This document shows positions 36,863 to 62,929 of a stretch of 64,000 nucleotides of DNA, piece after piece (within the stretch, counting starts at the first letter, position 1; the number at the start of each line of letters is the position of its first letter). The translations under genes and the position numbers were made by a program. The stretch is from assembly GCF_034048115.1 (NCBI RefSeq), contig NZ_CP139145.1, positions 2,418,001-2,482,000 of the forward strand, read 5' to 3'. Under the pieces are notes generated by a model. That model was not told where the DNA came from. It worked only from the letters and a program-made list of their open reading frames with translations, and did not search any database. Source of the stretch: Pseudarthrobacter sp. IC2-21 (GTDB taxonomy: Bacteria > Actinomycetota > Actinomycetes > Actinomycetales > Micrococcaceae).

Positions 36863-39574
<2,712 letters not shown>

Positions 39575-53030: not shown

Positions 53031-54053
53031 TTGACAGGGAATGCAACATTCCGGCACAACAACACCGCTTTGCTTTCGGTGAGCAGCGTCGAAGCTCCCA
53101 AGATCGTCAGTTCCGCTGATTTCGACCGCAGGCTGGCCCCCACCCTGCGGCGCTTGAAGTTTCCCCCGCGCCTGCTTGAACGGGTGGCAGGGATCACCCA
53201 CCGCCGTTGGTGGGCGCCGGGGACCTCGTTCGACGACGCCGCCATCGAGGCGGGCGCTAAGGCTTTGGCCGAATCCGGGGTGGAAGCGTCGGAGGTGGGT
53301 CTGCTGATCAACACCTCCGTCACACGGCGCAGCCTGGAGCCGTCCGTCGCGGTGAAGATCCATCATGGCCTCAGCCTGCCGTCGTCGGCCATGAATTTCG
53401 ATCTTGCCAACGCCTGCCTGGGCTTCGTCAACGGCCTGACCCTGGCGGCCAACATGATCGACTCCGGCCAGATCAAGTACGCCATGATCGTCAACGGTGA
53501 GGATGCCCAGGCCACTCAGGAGGCCACCCTTGCCCGGCTGCAGCGGCCGGAGACCACCCGTGAGGACTTCGGCCGTGAGTTCGCCACCCTCACCCTGGGT
53601 TCCGGCGCGGCCGCAGCCGTGCTGGGCCCGGCGGACCAGCATCCAGGGGCGCACCGGATCGTGGGCGGCGTGATGCGCGCCGGCACTGAACACCATGAGC
53701 TGTGCGTGGGCGGCATCGACGGCATGGCCACGGACACCAAAGGCCTGCTGGACGGCGGCCTGCAACTGGTGGTGGACGCCTGGCACGAGGCCAAGCCGGA
53801 GTGGGACTGGGCAACGATGGACCGGTACGTCACCCATCAGGTGAGCAACGCGTACACCCAGGCCATCATCGACGCAGTGGGCCTGGATCCGGAAAAGGTC
53901 CCCATCACCTTTCCCCACTGGGGCAACGTGGGCCCGGCCTCGCTCCCCATGACCCTGGCTGCCGAAGCGCAGACGCTGGCGGCCGGGGACAGGGTGCTGT
54001 GCATGGGCGTCGGTTCCGGGCTCAACACCGCCCTGCTGGAAATCGTGTGGTGA
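53031..54053 (+). CDS. oleA: OleA, thiolase-fold acyl-CoA condensing enzyme
   Basis: 340 residues. OleA joins two fatty acyl-CoAs head to head to a beta-ketoacid. The thiolase-fold signature has Cys129 (FDLANACLGFVNG), His in YVTHQVSN and Asn in FPHWGNVGPAS, and the Glu required for OleA activity is present in RRSLEPS. The genomic neighbours (OleBC, OleD) decide the assignment over FabH. The TTG at 53031 has AGGGG 6 bases upstream. The stop overlaps the oleBC start (GTGA). Confidence 0.92.
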   Translation: MTGNATFRHNNTALLSVSSVEAPKIVSSADFDRRLAPTLRRLKFPPRLLERVAGITHRRWWAPGTSFDDAAIEAGAKALAESGVEASEVGLLINTSVTRRSLEPSVAVKIHHGLSLPSSAMNFDLANACLGFVNGLTLAANMIDSGQIKYAMIVNGEDAQATQEATLARLQRPETTREDFGREFATLTLGSGAAAAVLGPADQHPGAHRIVGGVMRAGTEHHELCVGGIDGMATDTKGLLDGGLQLVVDAWHEAKPEWDWATMDRYVTHQVSNAYTQAIIDAVGLDPEKVPITFPHWGNVGPASLPMTLAAEAQTLAAGDRVLCMGVGSGLNTALLEIVW

Positions 54054-56800
54054 CCGCAGACTGGCCCGGCGTTGACCCCGAATGGTCCCGGGAAATTGAC
54101 GTGCCGTCCACCTCAGCGGCGGATAAACCCGGCGCTGTGCGCACCTGGCACCTGCTCGATAACGGTCCGCAGCTCGCGCGCCGGGGACTGGTTCCTGCCG
54201 GCACGCTGCTGTGCGTGCACGGCAACCCGACGTGGTCCTTCCTCTGGCGCAGCCTGCTGGCCGCCGGCTCGGACGCCGGGTCCGCCGCCACTTCGGATAC
54301 CGGTACCGCCGCCGGGCGGCCGTGGCGCGTGGTGGCCGTGGACCAACTGGACATGGGCTTTTCGGAGCGAACCGGAACGTTCCGGCCCCTGGCAGACCGC
54401 ATCAACGACCTGGCCGACCTCACCGCCGCCCTCGGGCTGGACGGGCCGGTGGTCACGGTGGGCCATGACTGGGGCGGCGTCATCAGCCTGGGCTGGGCGC
54501 TGGCACACCAGGAACAGCTCGCCGGGGTGGTGCTGACCAACACCGCGGTCCACCAGCCCGCCGGCTCCCCCATCCCGGCGGCGCTGCGGCTCGCCCTGCA
54601 CCCTGCCGTCCACCGCTGGGGAACGACGACGTCGGACGCCTTCCTGCGGGTCACGCGTGCCCTGGCCCGTCCGCCCCTGGCCGCGGAGGTCCGCCGCGCT
54701 TTCATGGCCCCTTACCGCGGCGCCGGCCGCCGCACGGGCGTTGGCAACTTTGTTGCCGACATCCCGGCGGACGCGTCCCATCCCAGCTACCCGGCACTCA
54801 ATGACGTCGCCGAAGGCCTGCGAGGGCTGAGCGTTCCCGCGCTGATGCTCTGGGGCCCCGCTGATCCGATCTTCTCCGACCGGTACCTGAAGGACCTGCT
54901 CGGCCGTCTGCCGCACGCGCAGGTGCACCGTTTCGAAGGTGCCGGGCACCTCGTCGCCGAGGACCGGGACATCGCCGCCCCCGTCTTCGAATGGCTCGCC
55001 GGGCTTGGCCTGGCTGAGTCGTCCGCTCTTCCGCCGAAGGACGCCGCGGCCGGCGCTCCTGAGCCGGCGGACCACGCCGCAACGGAACAGGCAGGCACCG
55101 CTGTTCCGCCCCTCTGGGCGCCGCTCACCGGACTGGCAGCAGGAGCCGACGGCGGGGACACCGCCGTCGCGGAAATGGCTGCGGACGGGCAGGTCACCCG
55201 CTCTCTCACTTGGCTGGAGCTCGAACAGAACATAGCCCGCCTTGCGGCGGGGCTGCGGGACATCGGGGTGGGGCCGCAGAAAAGGGTGAGCCTGATGGTT
55301 CCGCCCGGCGTGGACCTGACCGTGGTGCTCTACGCCTGCCTGCGGCTCGGCGCGGTGGTGGTCGTGGCCGACGCCGGCCTTGGCACCCGCGGACTGAGCC
55401 GCGCAGTGAAAGGCGCCACCCCGGATTTCCTCATCGGAATCGACAGGGCCCTCACCGCCGCCTTGGTACTCGGGTGGCCCGGCCGGCGGATCAGCGTGCG
55501 GGAGTTACCCGCCGCCCGGCGCCGGCTCCTGGGAGTGGAAACCTCCCTCACCGCGCTCGCCCGCCGCGGAAGCCGCGCCGGTGAGGGGCCGACGTCGGAC
55601 TCTTCCGTTCCGGACGCGGCTCCGGCTCCCGACGCACCGGCCGCCGTCCTCTTTACGTCCGGTTCCACCGGACCTGCCAAGGGCGTTCTCTACACCCACC
55701 GGCAGCTCGCCGCGATGCGCGATACCCTGGCCGCAACGCTGGGGATCCGTCCGGGCGCACGGCTGGTGGCGGGCTTCGCACCGTTCGCTCTCCTGGGGCC
55801 CGCCCTCGGAGCGGTTTCGGTGACCCCTGCCATGGACGTCACGGCACCGCGCACCCTCACGGCCCGCGCGCTGGCAGACGCCGCCGCATCCATTGACGCC
55901 ACCGTGGTCTTCGCCTCGCCGGCGGCCCTCCGGAACGTCCTCGCCACCGCGGGGAGCCTGAGCCCCGCCGGGCACGGGGCACTGGAGCGCGTGGAGTTGC
56001 TGCTCTCCGCCGGCGCACCGGTCCCGGAGCCCCTCCTCGCCGAGGTGCAGCGGCTTATGCCGCGGGCTTCGCTGCACACCCCGTACGGGATGACCGAAGC
56101 GCTGCCTGTCACGGATATCTGCCTGGAGCAGATCCGCGCGGCCCGGGCGGACGCGGACGCACGAACCATGCCCGGAGCAGGCAATGGCGTGTGTGTTGGC
56201 CTGCCCGTGAACGGCGCGCGCGTAGCCGTGATCCCTTTGGCCGAAGACGGAACCGCCCCGGGTGACTGCCCGGTCACGGCGCCGGGGGTGACCGGCGAGA
56301 TTCTGGTCAGCGCGCCGCATGTGAAAGAGGCGTACGACAGGCTCTGGCTGACCCAGCGGGAGAGCGTCCGCACCGCCGGCTGGCACCGCACGGGCGATGT
56401 TGGGCATTTTGACGCCGCGGGCCGGCTCTGGGTGGAAGGCCGCCTCGCGCACGTCGTGACGGCGCCGGGTTCGGTGGTGACGCCGGTGGGTGCCGAGCAG
56501 GCCATCGAACACCTGGACGACGTCGGGCTGGCCGCCGTTGTGGGGGTCGGCCCCGCCGGGACGCAGGCCGTCGTGGCGGTCGTCGAGACGGTGCCTGCTG
56601 TGCGCCGGGCCGGGCCCGCCGCGCCGCACCTGGCCGGACGGGTGCGGGACGCCGCGCGCCTCGCGGGCGTCAGTGTCTCCGCCGTGCTTGCGGTCCCCGC
56701 CCAGCCAACCGATATTCGCCACAACGCCAAGATCGACAGGACCCGCCTGGCGCGGTGGGCCTCCCGCGTACTGGCCGGCGGCCGCCCGGGCACGCCATGA
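54050..56800 (+). CDS. oleBC: OleBC fusion: beta-lactone decarboxylase and beta-lactone synthetase
   Basis: 916 residues. Residues 1-325 form an alpha/beta hydrolase of haloalkane-dehalogenase type with HGNPTWSFLWR, nucleophile Asp140 in VGHDWGG and a late His in GAGHLVAED (OleB). A Pro/Ala linker (about 326-360) leads to an ANL-superfamily ligase: TSGSTGPAKG (536-545), TPYGMTEALP and RTGDVGHFD (OleC). OleC closes beta-hydroxyacids to beta-lactones and OleB decarboxylates them to cis-olefins. Fusion of B and C is known from Micrococcus and relatives. GTG start overlaps oleA, stop overlaps oleD. Confidence 0.93.
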   Translation: MTADWPGVDPEWSREIDVPSTSAADKPGAVRTWHLLDNGPQLARRGLVPAGTLLCVHGNPTWSFLWRSLLAAGSDAGSAATSDTGTAAGRPWRVVAVDQLDMGFSERTGTFRPLADRINDLADLTAALGLDGPVVTVGHDWGGVISLGWALAHQEQLAGVVLTNTAVHQPAGSPIPAALRLALHPAVHRWGTTTSDAFLRVTRALARPPLAAEVRRAFMAPYRGAGRRTGVGNFVADIPADASHPSYPALNDVAEGLRGLSVPALMLWGPADPIFSDRYLKDLLGRLPHAQVHRFEGAGHLVAEDRDIAAPVFEWLAGLGLAESSALPPKDAAAGAPEPADHAATEQAGTAVPPLWAPLTGLAAGADGGDTAVAEMAADGQVTRSLTWLELEQNIARLAAGLRDIGVGPQKRVSLMVPPGVDLTVVLYACLRLGAVVVVADAGLGTRGLSRAVKGATPDFLIGIDRALTAALVLGWPGRRISVRELPAARRRLLGVETSLTALARRGSRAGEGPTSDSSVPDAAPAPDAPAAVLFTSGSTGPAKGVLYTHRQLAAMRDTLAATLGIRPGARLVAGFAPFALLGPALGAVSVTPAMDVTAPRTLTARALADAAASIDATVVFASPAALRNVLATAGSLSPAGHGALERVELLLSAGAPVPEPLLAEVQRLMPRASLHTPYGMTEALPVTDICLEQIRAARADADARTMPGAGNGVCVGLPVNGARVAVIPLAEDGTAPGDCPVTAPGVTGEILVSAPHVKEAYDRLWLTQRESVRTAGWHRTGDVGHFDAAGRLWVEGRLAHVVTAPGSVVTPVGAEQAIEHLDDVGLAAVVGVGPAGTQAVVAVVETVPAVRRAGPAAPHLAGRVRDAARLAGVSVSAVLAVPAQPTDIRHNAKIDRTRLARWASRVLAGGRPGTP

Positions 56801-57792
56801 GGGTGCTGGTCACCGGCGCAAGCGGGCTGCTGGGACGTGAAGTGGCCCGGCTGCTGGTGCGGCAGGGGCACGCCGTCACGACGTTCCAGCGCCGCGCCGC
56901 GGGGGTCGACGGCGCCGCGGACTTTTCGGGGTCCGTTACGGACGGGGACGCGGTCCGACGTGCGGTGGCCGGGTTCGAAGGCGTCATCCATCTCGCGGCG
57001 AAGGTCTCCTTCACGGGGCGTGCCGCTGACTTCCATGAGGTTAATGTCGAAGGGACCCGCCGGCTGATCGAGGCCGCCCGCGAGGCAGGCGTGCGGGACC
57101 TGGTGTTCGTCTCCTCCCCCTCGGTGGCCAACTCAGGGGCCGCCATTGCCGGGCTGGGTGCCGAACCGGCAGACCCGGCCCGCGCACACGGGGATTACTC
57201 CCGCACGAAGGCAGCCGCGGAACTGCTGGCGCTGGCAGCGGACTCACGGGAATTCCGGGTCGCGGCGGTACGCCCCCATATTGTCTGGGGGCCGGGCGAT
57301 ACCCAGTTGGTGGAACGGGTGCTCGAGCGGGCCGCCCGCGGCCGCCTGCCGCTGCTCGACGCGGGCGCCGCCCTGATCGACACCACGTATGTGGACAACG
57401 CCGCCTCCGCCATCGTTGCCGCGCTGCACCGCATGGAACAGGTCCACGGCCGGGCCCTCGTGGTCAGCAACGGCGAACCCCGCCCGGTGGGTGAGCTGCT
57501 GGCTGGCATCTGTGCGGCGGGCGGCGTGCCGGCGCCATCGTGGCGGGTGCCGGGCAGGATTGCCCGTGCGGCGGGATCCGTGGTGGAAAAGATCTGGCTC
57601 CGTTCCGGCAGGGAGGATGAGCCGCCCATGACACGGTTCCTCGCCGAGCAGCTCTCCACCGCCCACTGGTTCGACCAGCGCGAGACCCGTGCGCTCCTCG
57701 ATTGGACCCCCGCCGTCTCCCTTGACGAGGGCCTGGCGAAGCTGGCCGCACACTACGGCGCGCCAACGACCGCACGGACTGTGCGTCCGTAA
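56797..57792 (+). CDS. oleD: OleD, NADPH-dependent 2-alkyl-3-ketoacid reductase
   Basis: 331 residues of the extended SDR/3-beta-HSD type. TGASGLLG binds the cofactor, Tyr-x3-Lys is in DYSRTKAAAE with the serine in VFVSSPSV, and RPHIVWGPGD follows. OleD reduces the OleA product to the beta-hydroxyacid used by OleC. The ATG overlaps the oleBC stop by 4 bases, so oleA-oleBC-oleD is one coupled operon. Confidence 0.92.
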   Translation: MRVLVTGASGLLGREVARLLVRQGHAVTTFQRRAAGVDGAADFSGSVTDGDAVRRAVAGFEGVIHLAAKVSFTGRAADFHEVNVEGTRRLIEAAREAGVRDLVFVSSPSVANSGAAIAGLGAEPADPARAHGDYSRTKAAAELLALAADSREFRVAAVRPHIVWGPGDTQLVERVLERAARGRLPLLDAGAALIDTTYVDNAASAIVAALHRMEQVHGRALVVSNGEPRPVGELLAGICAAGGVPAPSWRVPGRIARAAGSVVEKIWLRSGREDEPPMTRFLAEQLSTAHWFDQRETRALLDWTPAVSLDEGLAKLAAHYGAPTTARTVRP

Positions 57793-57888
57793 CGAGACGC
57801 CGGACGCAGCGATGAAGGCGCGTGGCGCTGCCCGTTTCGCGGGGTTGTGCGGGTTTCCACAGACTTGGCCGCAGACTGACCGGTCGCC

Positions 57889-57917
57889 TTGTTGAGGGTT
57901 TAAGCGGAGCCTAGAAT
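57889..57917 (+). promoter_or_regulatory. Strong promoter upstream of the structured leader
   Basis: TTGTTG (57889-57894), 17-base spacer, TAGAAT (57912-57917). Both hexamers are close to consensus, unusual in this GC-rich sequence. Transcription would start near 57924 and produce a leader of about 230 nt before the ATG at 58154. Confidence 0.7.
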
Positions 57918-58153
57918 CGCACCAACAGGGTTGCTATGAGCTGCTCAGCTTGGTGGTCTCTCACGGGTCTTCGGACCGGTTCCAGCCAAGCTAATTCCAT
58001 CACCGGTGCAGACGGCGGGGAAGCAGCACAGGAGCGTCAGCCCTGCGGACAACTGAATGTCTTGGTTTGGCTGCCCCTGGGGGGAGCGGCAACGGCCCGA
58101 AGCAACTCGCTGCGGGCCTGCTACGCAACAGCGCACTCAATCCAGGAGTTCAC
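57918..58153 (+). promoter_or_regulatory. Candidate structured leader RNA (riboswitch-like), unknown class
   Basis: The leader holds several helices. AGCTTGG (57947-57953) pairs with CCAAGCT (57986-57992) and encloses GGTC-TTCG-GACC (57966-57977), a UUCG tetraloop. CACCAA (57920-57925) can instead pair with TTGGTG (57950-57955), which is exclusive with the first helix. CAGCC/GGCTG (58038-58042, 58069-58073) encloses GACA-ACTGAA-TGTC; GGCCCG/CGGGCC (58094-58099, 58113-58118) lies before the AGGAG at 58144-58148. I could not match it to a known riboswitch class. The whole interval from the oleD stop to this gene has no other gene. Confidence 0.5.
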
Positions 58154-61100
58154 ATGCCCGTATCCTCAGCCGAGCGTTCCCTGCAGCCCCTGCGGCAGAC
58201 CGTCCTGGCAGTGACCCTCGCGCTCGTAGCTGCGCTCTTGCCTGTTGGCCTGCCGGCGTCCTTCCTCGCCAGCGCGGCAGCGGCCGACCCCTGCGCTCCC
58301 CTGATCAACGCCATCGCATGCGAGAACTCCAAGCCCGGAAGCCCGCCCTCTGAGTGGGATATCTCCGGGGCAGGCGATTCCGACATTCAGGGCTTTGCCA
58401 CCGAAATCAGTGTCAATGCCGGCCAGCCCATCCGGTTCAAAGTGGACACCACCGCCGCCAACTACACCATCGGCATCTACCGGACCGGCTGGTATCAGGG
58501 CCTTGGAGCCCGCAAGATCGCCGACGTTACCCCGTCCGCCCTGCGGCAGAACCAGCCGCAGTGCCGGACGGACGTGAGCACTGAACTCTATGACTGTGGC
58601 ACCTGGGCTGTTTCGGCGACATGGCAGGTACCCTCGGCCGCCGTCTCCGGTGTCTACATAGCGCTCCTGACCCGCCCTGACAACGGCGACCAGAGCCACA
58701 TCACCTTCATTGTCCGCAACGATGCGAGCCACTCGGATGTCGTCTTCCAAACATCAGACACGACGTGGCAGGCCTATAACAGCTACGGGGGCTCTAACTT
58801 CTACGAAGGAGCGGCAAACGGGCGCGCGTACAAGGTCAGTTACAACCGGCCCGTCAACACCAGGGGCGGTCCGGACGGCCGGGATTTCTACTTCAGCAAC
58901 GAATATCCGATGGTCCGCTTCCTGGAGAAAAATGGCTATGACGTCAGCTATATCAGCGGCGTGGATACCGATCGCAGCGGAGGCCTGCTTCGCAACCACA
59001 AAACGTTCCTTTCAGTGGGGCACGATGAATATTGGTCGGGGGCACAGCGGGCCAATGTGACGGCGGCCCGTGATGCGGGCGTCAATCTCCAGTTCCTCTC
59101 CGGAAACGAAATGTACTGGCGCACACGGTACGAACCGTCCGCAGTGGATGGGGCCGGGTACCGGACCATCACCTCCTACAAGGAAACGTGGGCCAACAGC
59201 AAGATCGATCCCAGCACTGAATGGACGGGCACGTGGCGCGATCCCCGGTATGCCTCACAGGCCAACGGCGGCGGCCTGCCTGAAAACGGCCTCACGGGCA
59301 CGCTGTACATGTCGAATTTCTCAGATTTGCCCGTTACCGTCAGCGCCGCGGAAGGTAAGGCCCGGCTTTGGCGCGGCACCTCACTCGCCACTCTCGCGAC
59401 CGGGACATCGGCCCAGCTGGCCCCGCACACGGTGGGCTACGAATCCAACGAGGACCTGGACAACGGGTTCCGGCCAGCAGGACTCATCCGGCTGTCCACA
59501 ACCACCGGGCCGGTAGACCAGTACCTTCAGGACTACGGAAACACGGTCAAAGCCGGAACAACCACCCACAACATCACGCTGTACCGTGCGGCCAGCGGGG
59601 CCCTGGTTTTCTCCGCGGGCAGCGTTCAGTGGACGTGGGGCCTTGACCAGGAGCATGACGGCCCCGGGGCGCCGGCAGATCCTCGGATGCAGCAGGCTCA
59701 AGTGAACCTGCTGGCCGATATGGGCGCCCAGCCGGGAACACGGGACCCTGCGCTCGCGCCCGCCACAGCCAGCACTGATACCGCTGGCCCGGTGGTCACC
59801 ATAGCCTCCCCTGCCGAAGGTGCTTCAATACCGCAAGGAAGCAGTGTCACTGCCTCCGGGAGTGCCACTGACACCGGGGGAATTGTTTCAGGCGTGGAAG
59901 TCTCCACCGACGGCGGAGCTTCCTGGCATCCCGCCCAGGGAAAGCAGAACTGGACGTACACCTACATCCAGAAGGGGCTGTCCAGCGCCACGCTGAAAGT
60001 CCGTGCCGTGGACGACAGCGCCAACATCGGCGCCGCGGCAACCCGCAGCCTCAACCTGACCGGCCCTTACACGGTCTTCGGCAGCCAGGTTCCGGCTGTG
60101 GTGGATTCCGGGGACGGCGGAGCGTACGAGCTCGGCTTGAAGGTCACCCCAACGGTGGATGGTTTCATCACCGGTGTGCGGTTCTACAAGAGCACCGCCA
60201 ACACCGGAACGCACGTAGGCTCCCTGTGGAACTCCGCCGGCCAGCGTGTGGCCAGTGCAACCTTCGCAGCGGAAACGGCCAGCGGCTGGCAGAAGGTCCT
60301 GTTTTCCCAGCCAGTTGCCGTGGGGGCCGGCCAGACCTACACCGTGTCGTACACAGCGCCGCGTGGCCACTACGCCGCCAAGGACCGCCAGTGGGACAGC
60401 TTCGGCTTCAACGATCCGCCGCTGACGGTCGCCGGCGGCTTCGCCAGCCCGCCGGCCGGAGTCTATGGCAGCCCGGATGCCTACCCGACGAGCAGCTACG
60501 GCAACGGAAACTATTACGTCGACGCCGTCTTTGACACCACAGACACCACGCCGCTGACGGCCGCAGGGCAGTGGCCCTTGGGCGGTTCGTCAAGCGTTCC
60601 GCAATCCACCACGGTGGGGGCCGTCTTCTCCAAGCCGGTAACGGCGTCAAGCGTCCAGCTGAAACTCACGGCCGCTGCCGGGACCGACGTCGCGGGGACC
60701 ACGGCTTACGACGCTGTGGCACGAAAAGCCACGTTCACGCCTGCGTCCGGCCTCGACCTGGGCACGACCTACACGGCTACGCTCAGTGCCACCGCTTCCA
60801 GTGGCGGATCCCTGACGGCGGGCGGAACCTGGTCCTTCACCACCGTTGTCTCACCGCCTGTGCCGGGGACGTGTCCGTGCAGCTTCTATGACGATTCCGT
60901 GCTTCCGGGACTCCCGGAAGTCAGGGACGGCGTGCCGCTCACCCTGGGCATTCGGTTCTCCAGCACCACCGACGGCACCGTGACCGGCGTCCGCTTCTAC
61001 AAGTCCGTAGGAAATACCGGTACGCACACGGGCACGCTGTTCACTGCCTCCGGCCAACAGTTGGCCACCGTGACGTTCGCCAACGAAAGCACCTCCGGTT

Positions 61101-62929
61101 GGCAGACAGCGTACTTCAACCAGCCTGTTGGCATGACCGCCAATACGGAATACATCATGGCTTACAAGACCACCACCGGCACGTACTCAGCGACCGTCAA
61201 CGGGTTCGGCCCGGGACTTAGCGCAGGCAATCTGAGGGCATCTTCGGACGCGGGCGCCTACTCCTACTCCAGTGATTTCCCCAATTCCCGTTCAACGGCC
61301 AGCTACCTCGTCGATGTGGTGGTCCAGTACCCGGATCCGCCCTTTACCGCCACCGCCCAGTCACCACTGCCCGGCTCATCAAGCGTGGCGCTGAACAGCG
61401 CAGTGTCCGCGGTCTTCTCCAAAGCCCTCACGGCATCCACCGTGAAGGCCACCCTCACCGGCCCGGGTACGGCGTCCGTCCAGGGGACGACGGCCTTCGA
61501 CGCCGCAACGTCCAGGATGACCTTCACCCCCTCGGCCCCGTTGGCTGCCGGCACCACCTACACAGCCACAGTGACAGCCACCTCCGCAACAGGCCAACAG
61601 CTCAGTTCCGGCGGCTCCTGGACCTTCACCACAGTCCCGGCACCGCGGACCGAAGGGACCTGCCCCTGCACCCTTTACCAGGACACCGTCACGCCCACGC
61701 TGATGGAGGCAAATGACGGCATCCCGGTGGCTTTGGGAGTCCGGTTCGCAAGTTCGGCTGCCGGCACCATTAGCGGCATCCGGTTCTACAAGGCCGCCGG
61801 CAATACCGGCACACACACCGGCTCGCTCTTCACCGTCACAGGCCAGCAGCTCGCCACGGTGACCTTCAGCGGGGAAACCTCAGCGGGCTGGCAGACTGCG
61901 ACCTTCAGCCAGCCGGTGGCCATCGCGGCCGACACGGAATACGTTGCCGCCTACCGCTCCCCCAGCGGCATCTATTCGGCCTCGCCCGGAGGGTTCGCCT
62001 CAGGGTTCACCAGCGGTCCGCTCCGCACGGCCTCGGGTTCCGGTTCCTTCTCCTACAGCGGCGACTTCCCGTCGTCGGGCTCCAGCGCCAGCTACCTGGT
62101 GGACCTTGTGTTTGAACAGGGCGGCAGCACACCGCCCCCGCCGGCACCCTTGACTGTCACCGCCCAGTCGCCGGCGCCGAATGCAACCGGCGTGGTGCAG
62201 AGCGCCCAGCCGAGCCTGACCCTGTCCGCCGCCGTGCAACCAGGATCGGCACTGGTGCTCTCGGCAGGAGGCGGCAACGTATCCGGCTCGTCGGCGCTGT
62301 CCGCGGATGCCCGCACCATCACGTTCAGCCCCGCACAGCCCTTACCTTCGAATACGCAGATCACCGCGAGCGCCAGCAACGTTGTGTCCACAACGGGCAC
62401 CTCGCTCGCTCCCACATCCTGGCAATTCACAACAGTCAACGCGGCGCCGGCGGCCCAGACCCTGTTTTCGTCCATGGTCCCCCAAGTGGCCGCCGCCGCT
62501 GACACCCGTGCCATCGAGCTGGGCACGGCGTTCCGGACCACGGCCCCAGGTAGGGTCACCGCCCTCCGCTTCTACAAGGGACCCAGCAACACGGGCATCC
62601 ACACCGGATCGCTCTGGGATCCGGCAGGTGCCAGGCTGGTCCGCCTGACTTTTACCAATGAAACGGCCACCGGATGGCAGTCCGCGGTATTGGCCAGCCC
62701 CATCCGGCTGACCGTCGGCGCCAACTACGTTGTCTCGTACAACGCGCCGGTTGGGCGCTACTCGTACACCCCCAACTTCTTTACCCAGATCTGGTCAAGC
62801 GGCGTCCTCCGCGCGCCCACCACCAACGGGTTGTACCGCCTGGGATCAGGAACGGCAGTACCGAACCGGACGGACACCGCCACGAACTACTTCGTTGACG
62901 TGGTGTTCGCGCCTGATCCGGCAGGCTGA
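58154..62929 (+). CDS. Large secreted protein with DMFase-like, Ig-like and DUF4082 repeats
   Basis: 1591 residues. A signal peptide (1-46) ends near ASAAAADP. Residues ~50-540 resemble the N,N-dimethylformamidase beta-subunit-like domain (GFATEISVNAGQPI, FKVDTT..YTIGIYRTGWYQGLGAR, VGHDEYWS, GNEMYWRTRY). An Ig-like domain follows (545-640). Then DUF4082 modules at about 641-795, 905-1058, 1169-1321 and 1434-1589 alternate with SbsA-like Ig domains at 796-899, 1061-1165 and 1330-1429. Such modules suggest extracellular polysaccharide or surface binding; substrate and catalysis are unknown. ATG at 58154 has AGGAG 5 bases upstream. The 230-nt leader suggests strong regulation. Confidence 0.82.
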   Translation: MPVSSAERSLQPLRQTVLAVTLALVAALLPVGLPASFLASAAAADPCAPLINAIACENSKPGSPPSEWDISGAGDSDIQGFATEISVNAGQPIRFKVDTTAANYTIGIYRTGWYQGLGARKIADVTPSALRQNQPQCRTDVSTELYDCGTWAVSATWQVPSAAVSGVYIALLTRPDNGDQSHITFIVRNDASHSDVVFQTSDTTWQAYNSYGGSNFYEGAANGRAYKVSYNRPVNTRGGPDGRDFYFSNEYPMVRFLEKNGYDVSYISGVDTDRSGGLLRNHKTFLSVGHDEYWSGAQRANVTAARDAGVNLQFLSGNEMYWRTRYEPSAVDGAGYRTITSYKETWANSKIDPSTEWTGTWRDPRYASQANGGGLPENGLTGTLYMSNFSDLPVTVSAAEGKARLWRGTSLATLATGTSAQLAPHTVGYESNEDLDNGFRPAGLIRLSTTTGPVDQYLQDYGNTVKAGTTTHNITLYRAASGALVFSAGSVQWTWGLDQEHDGPGAPADPRMQQAQVNLLADMGAQPGTRDPALAPATASTDTAGPVVTIASPAEGASIPQGSSVTASGSATDTGGIVSGVEVSTDGGASWHPAQGKQNWTYTYIQKGLSSATLKVRAVDDSANIGAAATRSLNLTGPYTVFGSQVPAVVDSGDGGAYELGLKVTPTVDGFITGVRFYKSTANTGTHVGSLWNSAGQRVASATFAAETASGWQKVLFSQPVAVGAGQTYTVSYTAPRGHYAAKDRQWDSFGFNDPPLTVAGGFASPPAGVYGSPDAYPTSSYGNGNYYVDAVFDTTDTTPLTAAGQWPLGGSSSVPQSTTVGAVFSKPVTASSVQLKLTAAAGTDVAGTTAYDAVARKATFTPASGLDLGTTYTATLSATASSGGSLTAGGTWSFTTVVSPPVPGTCPCSFYDDSVLPGLPEVRDGVPLTLGIRFSSTTDGTVTGVRFYKSVGNTGTHTGTLFTASGQQLATVTFANESTSGWQTAYFNQPVGMTANTEYIMAYKTTTGTYSATVNGFGPGLSAGNLRASSDAGAYSYSSDFPNSRSTASYLVDVVVQYPDPPFTATAQSPLPGSSSVALNSAVSAVFSKALTASTVKATLTGPGTASVQGTTAFDAATSRMTFTPSAPLAAGTTYTATVTATSATGQQLSSGGSWTFTTVPAPRTEGTCPCTLYQDTVTPTLMEANDGIPVALGVRFASSAAGTISGIRFYKAAGNTGTHTGSLFTVTGQQLATVTFSGETSAGWQTATFSQPVAIAADTEYVAAYRSPSGIYSASPGGFASGFTSGPLRTASGSGSFSYSGDFPSSGSSASYLVDLVFEQGGSTPPPPAPLTVTAQSPAPNATGVVQSAQPSLTLSAAVQPGSALVLSAGGGNVSGSSALSADARTITFSPAQPLPSNTQITASASNVVSTTGTSLAPTSWQFTTVNAAPAAQTLFSSMVPQVAAAADTRAIELGTAFRTTAPGRVTALRFYKGPSNTGIHTGSLWDPAGARLVRLTFTNETATGWQSAVLASPIRLTVGANYVVSYNAPVGRYSYTPNFFTQIWSSGVLRAPTTNGLYRLGSGTAVPNRTDTATNYFVDVVFAPDPAG
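60076..62920. repeat. Four-fold DUF4082 / Ig-like module repeat
   Basis: Repeats recur about every 800 bases. Each DUF4082 copy contains G(V/I/L)RFYK(S/A/G)..NTG(T/I)H(V/T)G(S/T)L, then (S/T)GWQ and a C-terminal Y(F/L)VDVV-like strand; each Ig copy contains (A/S)VFSK..TAS and (S)FTTV. Copies 2 and 3 are the closest pair, also sharing the opening GTCPC. DNA identity in the NTGTHTG core is high enough to allow recombination. Confidence 0.8.

Follow-up and report, generated by a model that had tools for sequence, protein, structure and literature searches.

A conserved, folded leader RNA upstream of a giant secreted protein gene in Pseudarthrobacter sp. IC2-21 and its relatives is predicted to hide the ribosome-binding site

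A conserved, folded leader RNA lies upstream of the gene for a giant secreted protein in the window, by which we mean the whole 64,000-nt stretch of Pseudarthrobacter sp. IC2-21 DNA analysed here. Folding predictions indicate that it probably hides the ribosome-binding site of this gene, and we consider it rather probable that 57924-58153 is a genus-specific translational-control leader that hides the start site and is opened by a trigger. Computation supports the conservation of the leader, the covariation of its stems, its complementarity to the start site and its gene associations; occlusion in the cell, switching and the trigger are what we infer. In the proposed mechanism, the folded 5' domain would be followed by a block, C2, that base-pairs with the Shine-Dalgarno (SD) region, and the start site would be closed by default. 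In one group of relatives (group B), C2 could also pair with the first codons. A trigger, whether small molecule, RNA-binding protein or antisense RNA, would act on the folded 5' domain and release the start site. Polysaccharide and giant-protein genes carry a second leader type (type C), in which one loop is complementary to the SD and another to codons 2-4.

A conserved leader RNA ahead of one giant-protein gene

The preliminary description of this DNA proposed a promoter, a UUCG-capped helix inside a 7-bp stem, a competing pairing and two further stems, and every element that it named is present in the sequence (Table 1). The promoter hexamers and their spacer were also placed correctly, but the term "near-consensus" was too strong, with 8/12 sigma-70 consensus positions matched. 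A scan of 57780-58250 with a threshold of 9/12 consensus positions reported no promoter, and no terminator-like site was reported from the same interval. Relatives have a -10-like hexamer (TAGACT, TACACT or similar) at the equivalent place. The AGGAG of the gene occupies 58144-58148, ahead of the ATG start at 58154. Among the literature matches listed, no paper dealt with the window leader.

Table 1 Features of the leader and its gene in the window
Feature	Position	Strand	Basis or remarks
Promoter, predicted	57889-57917	+	-35 TTGTTG 57889-57894, 17-nt spacer, -10 TAGAAT 57912-57917; from sequence
Leader RNA	57924-58153	+	5' end inferred from promoter; 3' half in 54/206 genus genomes, 59 copies
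Outer stem GCTGC/GCAGC	57940-57944 / 58023-58027	+	Encloses inner hairpins; predicted fold of L008, similar in L009 and L025; no formal covariation count
7-bp stem AGCTTGG/CCAAGCT	57947-57953 / 57986-57992	+	Perfect pairing; covariation in 9 sequences
UUCG-capped helix GGTC/GACC	57966-57977	+	Sequence (GGTC-TTCG-GACC) and fold
Word GGTTCC	57978-57983	+	Conserved in the window's subgroup (9/9 rows); common to type-C leaders
Hairpin CCG-GUGCAGA-CGG	58003-58015	+	Contains word GTGCAGAC (58006-58013), common to type-C leaders
Block C2 AACTGAATGTCTTGGTTTG	58051-58069	+	Predicted anti-SD strand; most conserved leader part together with SD
Hairpin GGCCC/GGGCC, inner AGC/GCT	58094-58098 / 58114-58118	+	Covaries between subgroups
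Shine-Dalgarno region CCAGGAGTTCA	58142-58152	+	Predicted C2 target
C2:SD helices, predicted	58054-58058 with 58148-58152; 58060-58065 with 58142-58147	+	11 bp, one bulge
Giant secreted protein gene	58154-62929	+	Pfam: DMFA2_C, Big_7, three Big_5, four DUF4082 stretches

Conservation of the leader among close relatives, which the preliminary description had put forward as a check, turned out to be strong. A protein search of 150 genus genomes with the first 515 residues gave 46 matches with at least 75% identity, and the leader was present upstream of 43 of these orthologs; L022, L024 and L052 had none. R1, a covariance model built on the 3' half of the leader, then retrieved 59 copies from 54 of 206 genus genomes. 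All of these except one preceded the same giant DMFA2_C/DUF4082 protein gene (58/59; 46 at genes from the protein searches and 12 by tblastn with the first third of the protein). Genes were assigned by this first third, and a few frames are shorter, such as one of 764 residues in G053. The remaining copy (L187, G445:C7) precedes an apparent truncated remnant of the giant protein with a DUF4082-like end, as judged by eye. Searches of the genus with R1 and with R3, a model of the window's subgroup, found no second gene family for the window-type leader; R3 matched only window-type loci plus one partial match in G082 (E 0.07). The best R1 match outside the genus, in a sample of 295 family genomes, had an E value of 0.33. 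An exact pattern scan of named genomes returned 32 stretches, where chance alone would give about 7 (18 fixed bases against 257 billion); records of Arthrobacter, Paenarthrobacter or Pseudarthrobacter account for 22 of them, and the other 10 come from unrelated taxa. The window's own genome holds a single match to the conserved block within 3 mismatches. By the form of C2, the copies were sorted by script into group A (22, including the window) and group B (37, including L187).

Several further observations concern the distribution. Two window-type leaders apiece occur in G076, G080, G112, G147 and G445, and in several of these genomes the contig with the second copy measures 150-320 kb and may be a plasmid. 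A marginal additional R1 match was located at G108:C61:29179-29283 (L197; 21.7 bits, E 0.084). Many group A and B relatives, such as L030, L036 and L012, have by eye a TAAATCTACTGC motif upstream of the promoter, perhaps a regulator site; there was no match to it within 2 mismatches near the window's leader. Orthologs in other genera (L114, L117, L119, L124-L132, L142) are without the leader, and upstream of them we noticed by eye repeated GAGTACTCG / CAAGTAGT / GAGTATGAATTACGCTTGTT-like motifs, possibly regulator-binding sites. Directly upstream of the window's leader, at 53031-57792, stand OleA-like, fused OleBC-like and OleD-like genes. Their domains (acyl-carrier-protein synthase-like, alpha/beta-hydrolase plus AMP-ligase, and NAD epimerase) assign them to olefin biosynthesis. 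This content agrees with the oleA-oleBC-oleD set in the available text of PMC7158056, and nothing connects the leader with the adjoining olefin cluster.

The folded 5' domain and the start-site-complementary block

Folding energy argues weakly for structure in the leader (z = -1.50; 14/200 shuffles fold equally well or better), and the case for it comes from conservation and covariation. RNAalifold on all group A and B leaders jointly gave no useful structure, and groups were handled separately: alignment A1 of the 3' half was cut from an initial 46 leaders to 36 by dropping near-identical ones; A2 held 25 of the 37 group B leaders (28 after near-identical removal, less L047, L048 and L049 with a different inner hairpin); A3 and A4 held 11 and 9 of the 22 group A leaders, picked by subgroup; and A5 held 13 of 14 sequences, L071 being excluded. 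The 7-bp stem of the preliminary description was borne out by compensatory changes among nine sequences of the window's subgroup, with 3/7 pairs altered on both sides against 0.9 ± 0.7 in shuffles (7/500) and 0-2 in slid controls, over which the counted structures are favoured through being derived from their own sequences or folds. The last stem close to the SD likewise holds its position while its sequence changes. The basal helix and two hairpins of subgroups A2/A3 covary (11 sequences; 14 two-sided cells vs 5.3, 0/500), as does the 5' domain of group B, with 9 pairs altered on both sides among 25 sequences vs 4.3 ± 1.4 in shuffles (1/500). For the 3' half (36 sequences), 24 two-sided cells were counted vs 9.5 in shuffles (0/500); by pairs altered on both sides the count equalled that of shuffles (4 vs 3.9, 338/500). 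Further pair types showed no excess over shuffles in the 3' half, group B 5' domain or A2/A3 counts. In an alignment-free comparison of the basal-helix strands, pairing within a genome beat the mean of cross-genome pairings in 40/46 cases. Conserved secondary structure with covariation is thus present.

The competing pairing fared differently. CACCAA (57920-57925) can pair with TTGGTG (57950-57955), as the preliminary description stated, but 55% of cells were standard-paired vs 52% in shuffles (165/500), and among eight leaders compared the pairing as drawn is the window's alone, L007 of the same species having identical letters. It was rejected as not conserved. The argument for a riboswitch that had been built on this mutually exclusive pairing thereby loses its basis; its place is taken by a conserved block that is predicted to occlude the ribosome-binding site, together with a second leader type that has words in common with the window's and stands on polysaccharide genes. 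Group B has a competition of its own for the strand CUUGGC, which can pair with a 5' GCCAAG (94% of cells) and is also one side of the covarying basal helix, paired in 72% of cells. The 5' hairpin GCCAAG/CUUGGC showed no covariation, one compensated version (L187) being seen by eye only. Two pairings here compete for one strand and only one of them covaries; mutually exclusive folds are conceivable in this group.

Block C2 is more conserved than its surroundings. Across 32 sequences, mean pairwise identity was 78% for C2, somewhat favoured by the anchor for cutting segments that sits inside it, 78% from SD to ATG, 41% for the 5' domain, 52% from C2 to SD and 59% for codons 1-15. In the window, UGAAU-g-UCUUGG would pair with CCAGGAGUUCA in a duplex of -10.9 kcal/mol, with a predicted pairing probability of 0.96, and keeping the SD free is predicted to cost 9.3 kcal/mol. 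The computation thus supports a closed state in the window's subgroup. The prediction is uneven over the 32 leaders, the C2:SD probability being 0.95-0.97 in 6 including the window, at least 0.5 in 10 and at most 0.41 in 22. In group B, C2:SD is not the dominant predicted state. SD accessibility fell under the shuffled mean in only 19/32 leaders (Wilcoxon P 0.032), and C2 was the best SD partner in only 4/34. An SD-complementary strand more conserved than its surroundings is strong in the window's subgroup and weak in subgroup A3 (-4.2 to -5.8 kcal/mol), and C2:SD pairing is also weak in L044, L048 and L187 of group B. No C2 x SD pair was altered on both sides in the 3'-half alignment (36 sequences).

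In group B, C2 is complementary to the first codons, with a mean of -8.88 kcal/mol vs -3.56 kcal/mol for resampled synonymous codons (P < 0.05 in 33/36; L187 excluded, near-identical leaders included), a pattern that points to synonymous-codon choice as its origin. The same comparison in the window's group A was not above the synonymous null (0/22). A conserved start-site-complementary strand is thus common, while its exact target shifts between groups. A candidate anti-anti-SD pairing by the 3' CCAAG segment of group B was rejected, as it was not above shuffles.

A second leader type on glycosyltransferase and giant-protein genes

Comparison of the upstream regions of 23 paralogs with 54-60% identity revealed a different leader, type C, in 12 of them, and L140 is a 13th type-C paralog. 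In these 13 sequences, the two counted hairpins covary (6/12 pairs altered on both sides, 10/500; 15 cells vs 5.9, 0/500). A model of type C (R2) found 27 copies in 25/206 genus genomes; among 198 order genomes, the only matches outside the genus had E values of 0.016 and 0.085. In the window's own genome (G000), R2 matched one locus, distinct from the window's leader, which is therefore no member of type C. The genes that follow type C encode 14 giant proteins (13 called from protein searches and L225 by its N-terminus), 10 WecG/TagA/CpsF-GT2 proteins and 3 GT28-like glycosyltransferases; of the 13 non-giant products, 10 were classified with Pfam, and the other three, L213, L214 and L218, through their similarity to L210. 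The own-genome copy (G000:C1:4217980-4218078, minus strand; L207, L228) heads a run of glycosyltransferase-like genes, in the order WecG-GT2, GT2, mannosyltransferase-like protein and GT1/GT4.

Both type-C loops are complementary to the start site. All copies but one (26/27) have the loop GGUUCC, whose pairing with the SD reaches -10 kcal/mol or better in 22/27, a count in which the script picked the wrong SD site for L225. Codons 2-4 (GUCUGCAC) are matched by the second loop, GUGCAGAC, with 8/8 pairs in 18 copies, 7 in 7 and 6 in 2, the last of which may be chance, the best of many registers having been taken. L217, with the loop GUGUGGAU, maintains 8 pairs via G-U. Against synonymous resampling, the type-C codons gave P ≤ 0.013 in 20 of 22 copies tested, the exceptions being L217 (0.113) and L224 (0.467). 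The rare codons TCT and GCA argue for a constraint on these first codons: in four stretches of window genes they make up 2.3% of serine codons and 12% of alanine codons, respectively. Shared ancestry of the leader and the first codons could account for part of the conservation. An ORF of 21-24 codons begins at the clamped start in four copies (L207 of the own genome, L215, L216 and L219), and its TGA overlaps the glycosyltransferase start; in L207 it has 24 codons and overlaps the start of the WecG-GT2 gene. This arrangement resembles translational coupling by stop/start overlap (ATGA, GTGA), but the short ORF comes after a structured leader and begins with loop-complementary codons.

The two leader types meet in seven genomes matched by both models (G000, G015, G035, G050, G099, G108 and G452), and in 7/7 the giant-protein gene has the window type while a glycosyltransferase gene has type C. 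Three independent words are common to the window's subgroup and type C, namely GGUUCC, GUGCAGAC and AACUGA, each conserved in 75% or more of eight window-subgroup leaders and in 60% or more of the type-C copies (27). About 0.24 shared conserved 6-mers would be expected by chance among 46 and 21, a figure to be read with the fact that the words were spotted before being tested, and reversed, complemented and reverse-complemented controls gave 0 shared words. Within the window's subgroup, L017 and L029 lack the word GTGCAGAC. Group B has only AACUGA and GGGGAG in common with type C. Word order differs between the types, and neither R1 nor R3 found type C. The window's own GUGCAGAC loop has no GUCUGCAC partner within 57801-58700. 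Three common words in a different order, with no cross-detection by R1 or R3, make common recognition probable on sequence grounds, and we do not claim homology.

Both leader types may belong to a common cell-surface regulon with a shared regulator. As a tentative extension, we propose a possible Arthrobacter translational regulon for extracellular matrix, in which the two types would clamp the start codon and one trigger would read GGUUCC, GUGCAGAC and AACUGA. Type C and group B would clamp the SD plus the first codons, type C via two near-invariant hairpin loops, and the first codons would be part of the RNA element and be kept before unrelated glycosyltransferases. If true, this would link giant DUF4082 exoproteins with the making of polysaccharides in a genus common in soil, and type C would exemplify an RNA element that reaches into the coding sequence and stays with its first codons ahead of unrelated genes. 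Two leader-RNA families absent from Rfam would be added, and the leaders offer defined bait RNAs for a trigger search.

Alternative explanations

A leader that opens on a trigger has to be weighed against one that only sets constant low translation or stabilises the mRNA, with no switching. Such a damper would fit the window's predicted SD occlusion, which comes with no supported alternative fold (the competing pairing is unconserved and the group B anti-anti-SD is at shuffle level), and the confinement of the window type to a single gene family. We regard it as somewhat unlikely, because the leaders retain some 120 nt of folded, covarying 5' domain, which exceeds the needs of occlusion, and type C recurs ahead of three gene families. 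A riboswitch of a new class, sensing a metabolite or second messenger, would make use of this long covarying domain together with the predicted SD sequestration, and the group B 5' hairpin (94% paired) and covarying basal helix, which compete for the same strand, would suit it. The genes of c-di-GMP and c-di-AMP riboswitches encode surface proteins, polysaccharide functions and cell-wall enzymes; the giant exoprotein and glycosyltransferases found here resemble the c-di-GMP targets in particular, but Rfam matched the leaders to neither class. The leaders are found in one genus only in the samples searched, sequence identity in the 5' domain is low (41%), unlike that of typical aptamers, and the group B 5' hairpin lacks covariation; a riboswitch is therefore unlikely in our estimate. 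Translational riboswitches and other SD-sequestering leaders share with the window's leader a long structured 5' region, a conserved SD-complementary strand and the lack of any terminator-like site found, while the window's group differs in having no supported two-state design, in its confinement to one genus and in its single gene family. The proposal of a new regulatory RNA class was accordingly sound in so far as the leader is structured, conserved and covarying, has no Rfam match and occurred, among the genomes sampled, in a single actinobacterial genus; calling it a riboswitch would go beyond the evidence.

The trigger of a start-site-hiding leader could itself be an RNA-binding protein or a trans-encoded antisense RNA that recognises the common words, as suggested by short conserved GGUUCC, GUGCAGAC and AACUGA amid variable surroundings, in an order that differs by leader type. 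We hold this specific form to be doubtful, as two of the words already have cis partners in type C, and ANTAR, the sole known protein target checked, gave no hexaloop pair in the 59 leaders. ANTAR-target RNAs are actinobacterial, can hold the ribosome-binding site in a stem and are reported from Arthrobacter in the available text of PMC8164766, which gives them two hexanucleotide loops with A1 and G4. Unlike these, the window-type leaders showed no A1/G4 hexaloop pair (0/59, where shuffles lead one to expect 0.65) in a simple scan that required stems of 4 or more pairs and tolerated no variation, and the ANTAR-target candidate was rejected. Attenuation by a leader peptide from a small ORF could start from the ATG at 57936 in the window, a codon seen only in L007, L008 and L009; start codons with an SD-like site were inconsistent among six leaders checked, and these six and the alignment contained no conserved short ORF, which leaves a leader-peptide attenuator very improbable.

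A class already in Rfam is the most improbable of the readings considered, to the point of being barely credible. The leader had no match at E ≤ 10 (57780-58250), and the failure of the preliminary description to fit it to known riboswitch classes stands; Rfam gave it no known aptamer model. The 13 paralog loci (12 of type C and L071) gave only one chance microRNA match, and the own-genome type-C leader gave four matches, all sub-threshold. At the gathering score, the whole window contained only a tRNA and a TPP riboswitch, both outside the leader, the latter at 36868-36975 on the plus strand with 63.6 bits.
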